In this document: positions 59,355 to 62,050 of the stretch, piece after piece
How the letters are laid out: each line of letters opens with the position of its first letter
How positions within the stretch are numbered: the stretch's first letter is position 1
The notes under the pieces: model-generated
Seen by the model: only the letters and a program-made list of their open reading frames with translations
What the model was told of the DNA's origin: nothing
The model's database searches: none
Source of the DNA: Streptacidiphilus sp. ASG 303
Lineage (GTDB): Bacteria > Actinomycetota > Actinomycetes > Streptomycetales > Streptomycetaceae
Assembly: GCF_020991365.1 (NCBI RefSeq)
Contig: NZ_JAJLRA010000024.1
Span: 1-64,000, forward strand
Direction: 5' to 3'
DNA length: 64,000 nucleotides
Position numbers and translations under genes: made by a program

Positions 59355-59382
59355 CCCGCGCCGCGCCCGGCCCGGCAGCCCC

Positions 59383-59454
59383 GGTGACCCCCGCCACCCC
59401 GGTGACCCCCGCCACTCCGGTGACCCCCGCCACCCCGGTGACCCCCGCGACCCC
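59383..59454 (+). repeat. Four tandem 18-bp repeats containing start codons
   Basis: Units of GGTGACCCCCGCCACCCC (with one or two substitutions) at 59383, 59401, 59419 and 59437 encode a PVTPAT repeat. Each carries an in-frame GTG. Confidence 0.85.
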
Positions 59455-60469
59455 GACGCCCCCGGCGGCCCGGGACCGCCGCCCCACGGGGCGCGACGTG
59501 GCGCGCCTCGCGGGCGTCTCCCAGGCCACCGTCTCCCTCGTCTTCTCCGACGGGGGCGGCGCCCACCGCGTCTCCGAGGCCACCCGCGAGCGGGTCCGGG
59601 ACGCCGCCCGCACCCTCGGGTACCGCCCGCACGCCGCGGGCCGCCAGCTGCGGCTCGGCCGCACCAGCCTGGTCCTGCTGGCCGTGCCCAACATCCTCGG
59701 CCCGTTCTTCGCCCGGGTGCTCGCCGGCGCCCACGAGGAGGCCGGGGCGCACGGGCTGGCCGTCGTCGTCAGCTCCGGCTGGAGCAGTGCCACCCTGGCC
59801 CGCGCCACCACCACCAGCCAGTTCGACGGCCTGCTGGTCTGCTCGCCGGACGACAGCCAGCTCGGCGAGCTGCCCGAGTCCACCCCCGTGGTCTTCCTCG
59901 ACTCCGACCCCGCCCACGCCCGCGGCGCCGCCCGGCGACTCACCGTCGGGCTGGACGTCGCGGGCGGCATGCGCGCCGCCGTGGAGCACCTGGCCTCCCT
60001 CGGCCACCGCCGCATCGGCCACCTGCGGTCGACCCTCTCCGCCCACACCTTCCGCGCCCGCCAGGCGGGCTTCGAGGAGGCGGCGCGCGGCCTGGAGGTC
60101 GTGGAGGCCGGCGTCGCCCTCAACGACGGTCTGCCGGCGGCCCGCGCCGCCGCCCGCAGCCTGCTGGACCGGCCCGACCGCCCGCACGCCGTGGTGTGCG
60201 ACGACGACGTGGTGGCCGCCGGGCTGTACCGGGCCGCGGCCGAGCTGGGGCTGCGCATCCCCGAGGACGTCTCCGTCGTCGGCATGGACGACATCGCCGC
60301 CGCCGCGCTCCTCACCCCGCCGCTCACCACCGTCGACCTGCCCGGCGAGCTGCTCGGCCGCCGGGGCGTCGCCGCGCTGGCCGCCCTGCTGGCCGGAGGG
60401 CCGGCGGTGGAGCCCGAGCCGCTGCCGACGGCGCTGGTGGTGCGGGGCTCGACGGCTACCGCCAGGTGA
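59384..60469 (+). CDS. LacI family transcriptional regulator
   Basis: A 361-residue repressor if translation starts at the first GTG. The HTH is TGRDVARLAGVSQATVSLVF with the hinge helix RVRDAARTLGYRPHAAGRQL. The periplasmic-binding-like sensor domain follows: VLLAVPNILGPFFARVLAGA, HRRIGHLRSTLSAHTFRARQ, VVCDDDVVAAGLYRAAAELG. The N-terminus is a PVTPAT repeat whose four copies each hold an in-frame GTG (59384, 59402, 59420, 59438), so the true start is undecided. No ribosome binding site is clear. No transport operon is adjacent, so its sugar and target are unknown. Its end overlaps the Uma2 remnant by 14 bp. Confidence 0.9.
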   Translation: MTPATPVTPATPVTPATPVTPATPTPPAARDRRPTGRDVARLAGVSQATVSLVFSDGGGAHRVSEATRERVRDAARTLGYRPHAAGRQLRLGRTSLVLLAVPNILGPFFARVLAGAHEEAGAHGLAVVVSSGWSSATLARATTTSQFDGLLVCSPDDSQLGELPESTPVVFLDSDPAHARGAARRLTVGLDVAGGMRAAVEHLASLGHRRIGHLRSTLSAHTFRARQAGFEEAARGLEVVEAGVALNDGLPAARAAARSLLDRPDRPHAVVCDDDVVAAGLYRAAAELGLRIPEDVSVVGMDDIAAAALLTPPLTTVDLPGELLGRRGVAALAALLAGGPAVEPEPLPTALVVRGSTATAR

Positions 60470-60620
60470 CGAGCGCGCCCAGGTCGACCGTCACGGGGAA
60501 GAAGACGAGGGCTCCGTCGATCAGCTCCGTGTGGCGCGGGGCCTCCGGAAGGTGGTCCAGGTCCTCCGCGAGCCAGCCCTCGGCGCGGGGCGGGCGCATC
60601 CAGTCGGGCAGAGCGGTCAT
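60456..60620 (-). pseudogene. Truncated Uma2 family endonuclease remnant
   Basis: 54 residues that begin like a full Streptomyces Uma2 protein: TALPDWMRPPRAEGWLAEDL, DHLPEAPRHTELIDGALVFF, then diverge (PVTVDLGALVTWR) and stop. Normal Uma2 proteins are about 180-200 residues with an Asp/Glu nuclease core, which is missing. The 3' end overlaps the convergent LacI gene. It is likely a decayed gene after a deletion. Confidence 0.6.
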
Positions 60621-60678: not shown

Positions 60679-61917
60679 TCAGTGCGCGGGGGCGCCCGCG
60701 GCCTCCCCGGGCGCGCCGTGCGGCGCCGGGGGCCGGGCCGGGACGGCCGGGGGCACGAGCCGGCGGCGGGCGGCGGACAGGACCAGCGCGCCCGCGCCGA
60801 TGCCGGCCGCGCCGCACACGGCGGCCGCCCGCAGCGAGCCGTCGACCAGCACGCCGGAGACGGCGGCCCCGGCGGCGTTGCCGGTGGAGACCACGGTGAC
60901 CAGCCAGGCGAAGGCCTCGGTGGCGGTGCCGGGCGGCGCCAGTTCGCCGATCAGGCCGAAGGACGCCGCCAGCAGCGGCGCCAGGCCGAGGCCGGTGAGG
61001 AAGGAGAGCACGGTCATCACCGCGGGGGAGGGCAGCGGCACCAGGGAGGCGAAGCCCGCCGTCATCACCCACGCCAGCACCCAGGTGCGGGTTGCGGGGG
61101 CCGCCCGCCAGGGGGCCGCCCCGTACACGAGGGCGCCGACCAGGCCGCCGGAGGCCGCGACGGCGAGCAGGGTGCCCGCGCCGCCGGGCAGGCCGCCGCG
61201 GTGCTCCTCGGCGTAGGCGACGTACAGCACCGCCTGGGCGCCGAGCGCCCAGCCGGCCCCGGCGAGGCCGACGAGCAGCAGCACCAGGCCGGGGGAGCGC
61301 AGCGGGCCGAGGAGCCCGGCGCCGGCCCCGCGGGGCGGGGCGGTCCAGGCGCGGGCGGGGGCGGCGGTGGCGACGACCAGGGCGCCGGCCAGGCCGAGTC
61401 CGGCGGCGATCCAGAGCGCGGCGGCGGGGGAGGCCGCGGCGGCGACGACGGCGACGGCGAGCGGGCCGACGACGTAGAGCAGCTGCTGGGAGGCGGAGTC
61501 GAAGGCGTACGCGGTGTCGAGCTCCCGCTCCTCGACGATGTGCGGCCACAGGGCCCGCAGGCACGGCTCCAGCGGCGGCATCGCCGCCCCGGCGAGCGCC
61601 GCGCCGGCGAAGGCCGCCGCCGCGTCGCCGGGCGCCACCGCGAGCAGGGCGTAGCCGAGGCCGGCGGCGCAGGCGGAGGCGAGCAGGACCCGGGGCTGGC
61701 CGGCCCGGTCCACCAGGCGGCCGAGCACCGGGCCGCCGAGGGCGGCGGCGACGGCGTAGGCGGCGGTGACGGCGCCGATCCGGCTGTAGGGGGCGTGGGC
61801 CCCGCGCAGGGCGAGGGCGACGACCAGGGCGGTCATCCCGGCCGGGAGGCGGCCGAGGAGGGTTCCGAGCAGCAGCCGGGCGACGTACGGGCCGCGGAGC
61901 AGGGAGAGGTAGCGCAC
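60679..61917 (-). CDS. MFS transporter
   Basis: A 412-residue transporter with 12 predicted helices. The early loop reads GGPVLGRLVDRAGQPRVLLA, a motif-A-like GxLaDRxGrR segment. The rest is hydrophobic, with short basic linkers and an Ala/Pro/His tail. It is related to MFS exporters of drugs or sugars; the substrate is unknown. GTG 61917 begins RYLSLLRGPYVARLLLGTL. A perfect 14-bp palindrome lies 9 nt upstream, so expression is probably controlled by a repressor encoded elsewhere. Confidence 0.88.
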   Translation of the reverse strand: MRYLSLLRGPYVARLLLGTLLGRLPAGMTALVVALALRGAHAPYSRIGAVTAAYAVAAALGGPVLGRLVDRAGQPRVLLASACAAGLGYALLAVAPGDAAAAFAGAALAGAAMPPLEPCLRALWPHIVEERELDTAYAFDSASQQLLYVVGPLAVAVVAAAASPAAALWIAAGLGLAGALVVATAAPARAWTAPPRGAGAGLLGPLRSPGLVLLLVGLAGAGWALGAQAVLYVAYAEEHRGGLPGGAGTLLAVAASGGLVGALVYGAAPWRAAPATRTWVLAWVMTAGFASLVPLPSPAVMTVLSFLTGLGLAPLLAASFGLIGELAPPGTATEAFAWLVTVVSTGNAAGAAVSGVLVDGSLRAAAVCGAAGIGAGALVLSAARRRLVPPAVPARPPAPHGAPGEAAGAPAH

Positions 61918-61925
61918 CCGGTGAA

Positions 61926-61939
61926 GTTATACGTATAAC
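61926..61939. promoter_or_regulatory. Perfect 14-bp palindrome over the MFS promoter (operator)
   Basis: GTTATACGTATAAC, AT-rich in a 75% GC context, 8 nt upstream of the GTG at 61917. On the minus strand its TATAAC half can serve as the -10, so a protein bound here would block initiation. No regulator gene is adjacent. Confidence 0.75.
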
Positions 61940-61970
61940 GAGGCGGAGGCAAACGGCCCGGACAGGGCAG

Positions 61971-62004
61971 GGGGCCCGTCGCGTGCGGACACGCGCGGGC
62001 CCCC
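61971..62004. terminator. Terminator after the cold-shock gene
   Basis: GGGGCCCG-T-CGCGTG pairs with CACGCGCGGGCCCC (one bulged T) around loop CGGA. It lies between the cold-shock gene and the MFS promoter, both leftward. Confidence 0.6.
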
Positions 62005-62008
62005 TTGG

Positions 62009-62050
62009 GTGGTGCTGCTCAAGTGGTGCTGCTCAAGCGGTGCCGCTCGA
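62009..62050. repeat. Three tandem 14-bp repeats in the cold-shock gene 3' region
   Basis: GTGGTGCTGCTCAA at 62009 and 62023 (identical) and GCGGTGCCGCTCGA at 62037, between the cold-shock stop and its terminator. Confidence 0.8.

Follow-up and report, generated by a model that had tools for sequence, protein, structure and literature searches.

LacI-family operators take the form of even-length palindromes of about 14 to 20 bp with CG at the centre, and PurR and LacI of E. coli both have CG-centred palindromic operators. The closest described system is that of ScnR1, a LacI-family protein of Streptomyces caniferus that is 68% identical to SCO1642 and binds promoters in gel shifts (PMC12292694; statements from this source refer to the part of its text that was available). 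Its motif, RTSATACGHATRAY, was derived from six sites that were first located with AlphaFold 3; mutated palindromes weaken ScnR1 binding, and the scnR1 promoter itself carries a pair of 14-bp palindromes separated by 7 bp (PMC12292694). The same text describes the SCO1642-type LacI group as highly conserved in Streptomyces and functionally unexplored, and the MFS gene next to scnR1 does not figure as a target in its available part. A near-identical 14-bp motif, RTCATWCGYATGAY, belongs to GvmR/GvmR2, LacI-family regulators of the guvermectin cluster, and GvmR activates this biosynthetic cluster (PMC12292694).

We analysed a 64,000-nucleotide stretch of DNA from Streptacidiphilus sp. ASG 303, referred to below as the window. 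A perfect 14-bp palindrome, GTTATACGTATAAC, can be read directly at positions 61926 to 61939, where it overlaps the promoter proposed for an MFS transporter gene. Based on comparisons of sequence, it is highly probable that this palindrome serves as the only operator for a ScnR1-like LacI repressor, encoded at 59384 to 60469, that controls the MFS gene. The site has the LacI-family operator form, with an even length, the halves GTTATAC and GTATAAC and CG at the centre, and it is proposed as such an operator, assigned to neither strand, from its position, its uniqueness, its distribution in the family and the conservation of its columns. Perfect 14-bp palindromes are not rare as such in the window, where 19 were observed and 21.8 are expected from composition. 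AT-rich ones with at least five A/T pairs are expected about 0.002 times, and the remaining palindromes in the window are all GC-rich, which bears out the description of the site as a perfect AT-rich palindrome in an earlier note on this DNA.

Allowing up to three mismatches, GTTATACGTATAAC has no other match in the window (shuffles gave a mean of 0.02), and allowing up to two it has none elsewhere in the 6.99-Mb genome. The earlier note had proposed looking for more genome copies near a regulator gene; the window's own genome holds no second copy. A regulon search at up to three mismatches in nine genomes gave no consistent excess over a reversed-pattern control: six of the nine fell below the control, among them the window's own genome (3 against 4), and three were above it (G036, 10 against 8; G101, 11 against 8; G184, 4 against 1). 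In seven of the loci read, a recurrent three-mismatch match, GTTCTACGTCTCAC, turned out to fall where the prcA coding sequence begins. In the literature searched, the site strings were matched only in two papers of unrelated yeast and chloroplast work.

The window site agrees with RTSATACGHATRAY at 13 of 14 positions, position 3 being T instead of C/G (motif as given in the available part of PMC12292694). We count this mismatch against the LacI assignment, and also that the motif comes partly from AlphaFold 3 predictions that preceded the gel shifts. ScnR1/SCO1642 resembles the window system in its LacI-family membership and its 14-bp CG-centred palindromes. The differences are that the window has one perfect palindrome whereas ScnR1 has two imperfect ones, that lacI is convergent or unlinked in the window clade instead of divergent and has no site of its own, and that protein identity to the ScnR1 group is about 46%, with position 3 of the motif differing. 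Because the two own-promoter palindromes are not found at the window lacI, its product is best classed by sequence as ScnR1-like and not as a ScnR1 orthologue. With respect to GvmR, the window site falls outside RTCATWCGYATGAY at 2 of 14 positions, and where the window LacI is a proposed repressor of an MFS gene, GvmR switches on a biosynthetic cluster.

The exact 14-mer is present in 83 of 394 genomes of the family, confined to 3 of 17 genera, and in none of 307 genomes elsewhere. It occurs in all three genomes of its own genus (apparently Peterkaempfera), in 69 of 70 of Kitasatospora (g14) and in 11 of 14 of Streptacidiphilus (g3); the only Kitasatospora genome without it, G164, has a one-mismatch version before its MFS gene. 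The MFS gene follows the exact site at all 34 site loci checked. When 44 upstream regions were aligned on their best match, 13 of the 14 site columns were conserved in 44/44 and the other in 43/44, neighbouring positions being far more variable; the Kitasatospora rows of this alignment were drawn from known exact-site genomes, plus G164, and G036 supplies two near-duplicate rows. Judged by this distribution and these columns, GTTATACGTATAAC is a strong evolutionary footprint. The earlier note had seen an operator-type element on the MFS promoter, and a conserved site in this position makes it very likely that a DNA-binding protein regulates the gene.

Several loci in this set deserve separate mention. 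G036 has two copies of the site and the MFS gene on two contigs (L083 and L084), with near-identical upstream regions. G041 has both the site and LacI, and its MFS gene, missed at E 1e-80, was found only on the site locus; that of G048 was likewise missed in the search, though visible beside the site. A scan of named genomes used the 14-mer plus an added TTGA box, a pattern that would miss the window's own promoter, and it gave 68 stretches, of which 39 have the MFS orthologue and 29 do not; most of these 29 look like chance matches in AT-rich DNA. Three of the 29, L157, L190 and L212, all from Lachnospiraceae, have the 14-mer immediately ahead of a gene for a distant LacI-family protein (24-27% identity, helix GVSTA(T/A)VSYV), which may have come to use this operator independently. 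On two Pseudomonas contigs (L164 and L180), a LacI-family gene with the helix GVSQPAVSY is located about 1.27 kb away from the 14-mer and its TTGA box.

The candidate repressor gene lies on the plus strand (59384-60469). Its product combines an N-terminal helix-turn-helix (PF00356, E 3.5e-14) with a periplasmic-binding-protein-like sensor domain (PF13377, E 1.8e-35), both above cut-off, and is thus a LacI-family member. The gene is convergent with the MFS gene, with 209 bp between the stops, and the earlier statement that no regulator is adjacent has to be abandoned. An 18-bp tandem repeat of 4.3 copies (59379-59455) lies at the predicted lacI start, where it specifies a PATPVT-like N-terminus, and the gene may really begin at a codon further downstream. 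Between the two genes, a small minus-strand reading frame (60470-60620) resembles, by eye, the start of a Uma2-type gene and is probably a gene remnant. The region ahead of lacI in the window holds no site, its best match having 7 mismatches, so the autoregulation that is common in the LacI family is not seen here; we count this, too, against the LacI assignment.

Convergent LacI and MFS genes were found at 13 of 13 Kitasatospora loci and at both further own-genus loci fetched, with gaps of 99 to 3743 bp. Among the 14 Streptacidiphilus genomes, a LacI orthologue (69-73% identity) is present in exactly the 11 that have the site and in none of the three that do not (Fisher p 0.0027, a value that ignores ancestry); these three also lack the MFS gene. 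The Streptacidiphilus LacI gene usually lies away from the MFS gene; in G073 the two are still adjacent. One contig of G030 carries both genes, separated by 1.2 Mb. Most other unlinked cases have them on separate contigs of draft assemblies, an arrangement that allows for distance but does not prove it. In Streptacidiphilus mqnE, GNAT and DUF4229 are kept beside LacI in 3/3 loci read, and a cold-shock gene, mqnA and the site are kept beside the MFS gene in 5/5, the cold-shock match showing DNA conservation only. The site has stayed exact after this separation, and Streptacidiphilus thereby offers, as far as gene order indicates, a natural experiment on regulation in trans. The control in trans that the earlier note had inferred fits most Streptacidiphilus relatives, in which the LacI gene is elsewhere, whereas the window itself has a candidate next door.

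Homologous pairs occur in other genera, where the nearest MFS protein is about 44% identical to that of the window and is accompanied by a divergent LacI homologue. The intergenic sites of these pairs are GTTATACGTAAAAC, GTTATACGTAACAC or GTCATACGTATGAC, and GTCATACGTATGAC fits RTSATACGHATRAY at all 14 positions (motif from the available text of PMC12292694). Outside the three genera, 14 of 17 loci have LacI and a site at up to two mismatches, and two (g4 and g8) have neither; at L063 a LacI homologue is present and no site was recognised, a locus that we count against the LacI assignment. In a second sample, of Streptomyces-type loci from g10 (by far the largest genus, taken to be Streptomyces), all 29 have a divergent LacI gene, a site and a second, near-identical site. 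This second operator resembles ATGGTACGTATGAC and lies 20 to 23 bp upstream in the 29 loci, at 21 bp in 23 of them, an offset that matches the 7-bp spacing described for the scnR1 palindromes in the available part of PMC12292694.

The Streptomyces-type LacI proteins are only about 46% identical to that of the window, which we likewise count against the LacI assignment. At the nine loci read, prcA and pafA flank the Streptomyces-type pair. Of ten genomes checked for the other type, nine have prcA in the 1.5 kb before pafA, and in eight of nine neither LacI nor MFS occurs in that interval; the tenth, G018, has an MFS gene there, and at the second pafA copy of G036 prcA is on the other side. By these loci, the pair has a different place on the chromosome in the two types of genome. 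SCO1642 is presumably also beside the proteasome genes, to go by its locus numbering. A broader picture can be offered tentatively, although we think it rather doubtful as a whole: a core housekeeping switch of Streptomycetaceae, in which a dedicated LacI protein would have a single target, an exporter of the MFS type for a common endogenous metabolite, with the pair located at the proteasome genes (prcA-pafA) in Streptomyces-type genomes and at the menaquinone genes (mqnE-mqnA) in the Kitasatospora group. Upon rearrangement of the divergent pair, two weaker operators would then have given way to one that is perfect and near-frozen, even where the genes are unlinked.

The recognition segment GVSQATVSLV is found in the window protein and at all 27 own-clade loci read. 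At 44 of 44 loci from other genera the segment reads VSQ(A/S)(T/A/S)VSLV, with GVSQATVSLV exact at 19 and GVSQAAVSLV at 20, and the window protein hence shares its recognition helix with the LacI proteins paired to the homologous MFS in Streptomyces-type genomes. Two loci, L056 and L057, have an SQST helix and both have a GTCATACGTATGAC site; this is suggestive of residue-base covariation, in two sister rows only. The closest solved chain is PurR (E 2.1e-34), which has the same domain layout and differs from the window LacI in its recognition residues (T-T-H against Q-A-L in the alignment), its operator and its targets.

These results bear on the choice of regulator. The earlier note had suggested a MarR-, TetR- or GntR-type repressor encoded elsewhere, and families of this kind do bind short AT-rich palindromes; furthermore, the LacI candidate is itself unlinked in most Streptacidiphilus, so another unlinked regulator is conceivable. 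We nevertheless find such a repressor very improbable, since LacI comes and goes with the site and is a recurrent neighbour in three genera and, as a divergent homologue, in others too, and since the site is CG-centred with a 13/14 fit to the published motif of a LacI regulator. A profile search detected no MarR, TetR or GntR gene among the immediate neighbours scanned. In place of the family first suggested, the locus has a site of LacI form and a LacI gene that is adjacent and co-occurring.

The MFS gene itself (60679-61917, minus strand) has a GTG start and encodes a protein of 412 aa that matches MFS_1 above cut-off (PF07690, E 2.4e-24). NCBIfam exporter models scored far below cut-off on this protein (TIGR00900, 46 of 319.6 bits), no NCBIfam model was above it, and a sequence search at E 0.001 found no PDB relative. 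The drug-efflux side of the earlier note's idea finds no backing other than these sub-threshold matches. Two paralogues in the same genome, G000:C127:32601-33776 (L008) and G000:C123:467184-468376 (L010/L015), are about 50% identical to the window protein and have neither the site nor a LacI neighbour. The window clade is strongly supported in the MFS tree, with these paralogues as its sister and the Streptomyces-type proteins further out. That paralogues without site or LacI are closer to the window protein than the Streptomyces ones is likewise counted against the LacI assignment.

Upstream of the MFS gene, we propose a minus-strand -10 element, TAACTT (TANNNT type), at 61924 to 61929, which overlaps the 3' end of the palindrome and was missed by the consensus scan, and a weak -35 element, TTTGCC, at 61948 to 61953, 18 nt before it. 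The -10 overlap is supported because the two T's after the palindrome, which complete TAACTT, are conserved in 43/44 and 44/44 of the aligned regions. The -35 was placed from the sequence and the same aligned regions, and many Kitasatospora relatives have TTGACC or TTGACG at that position. Along the MFS gene we infer a conserved block of TTGAC/TTTGC, about 18 nt and TAACTT, in which the palindrome would take in most of the -10 together with the last part of the spacer. Coverage of the -10, as first claimed, accordingly has the T columns and the upstream box in its favour, and against it a generic scan for sigma-70 promoters and terminators that called none at the palindrome region.

The position of the site also bears on the sign of regulation. 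A LacI-type protein acting at the same operator as an activator, or as a dual regulator, has a precedent in GvmR, which binds a near-identical motif and activates (PMC12292694, available part); a position over the spacer and the -10 favours steric repression, and activation here is unlikely by a wide measure. It is highly improbable that the palindrome is a strong promoter element only, palindromic by accident and with no regulator. It does overlap the -10 and is followed by the conserved TT that a promoter would predict, but sigma does not recognise individual bases of the spacer, and yet the left half of the palindrome, which lies there, is conserved in 44/44 while the neighbouring spacer varies. 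Streptomyces-type loci also have a second copy 20 to 23 bp upstream.

The GTG start lies 8 nt beyond the palindrome, with no Shine-Dalgarno sequence seen ahead of it. Since the distance from operator to start is only 7 to 10 nt in 11 of the 44 upstream regions (leaders in the others are 33 to 83 nt), the window MFS mRNA may be leaderless. The short leaders are scattered over all three genera (61917-61939, minus strand, in the window; L003/L006, L044, L120, L133 and most Streptacidiphilus loci), suggesting that the MFS transcripts have switched more than once between having a leader and lacking one. Further upstream, a strong minus-strand hairpin at approximately 61973 to 62007 (fold of 61960-62020, -36.8 kcal/mol, z -4.2) separates the palindrome and the MFS promoter from the cold-shock gene; it is probably the end of the cold-shock transcript, and has no T-run and was not called by the terminator scan. 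The palindrome, although an inverted repeat adjoining a start codon, has a negligible chance of being a leader hairpin or a terminator: RNA of this region is no more stably folded than its shuffled versions (z +1.21; 184 of 200 do equally well or better), on which ground this reading was rejected, the proposed transcript start downstream of it would leave it untranscribed, and the strong hairpin upstream is separate.

Returning to the LacI repressor, the conserved site and its promoter position, the presence and co-inheritance of the LacI gene and the common recognition helix are the grounds on which we infer binding by the window protein, repression as its sign, and a ligand and a substrate. 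In the absence of ligand, a LacI dimer would bind the palindrome and cover the spacer and -10 of the MFS promoter, and RNA polymerase would be kept off for as long as the dimer stayed bound. A small molecule that occupies the C-terminal sensor domain would lift the repressor off the DNA and thereby turn on the MFS transporter, which is probably an exporter.

The switch is well conserved, its mechanism is ordinary, and it belongs to an already known type. It gives a predicted target and operator to a LacI group that is reported, in the available text, as functionally unexplored (PMC12292694). The near-frozen site that is kept in trans in Streptacidiphilus is a simple handle, as the ligand that releases the repressor should name the substrate of a transporter retained across these bacteria. 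The pair would also be a tidy case of a local regulon outliving genome rearrangement.
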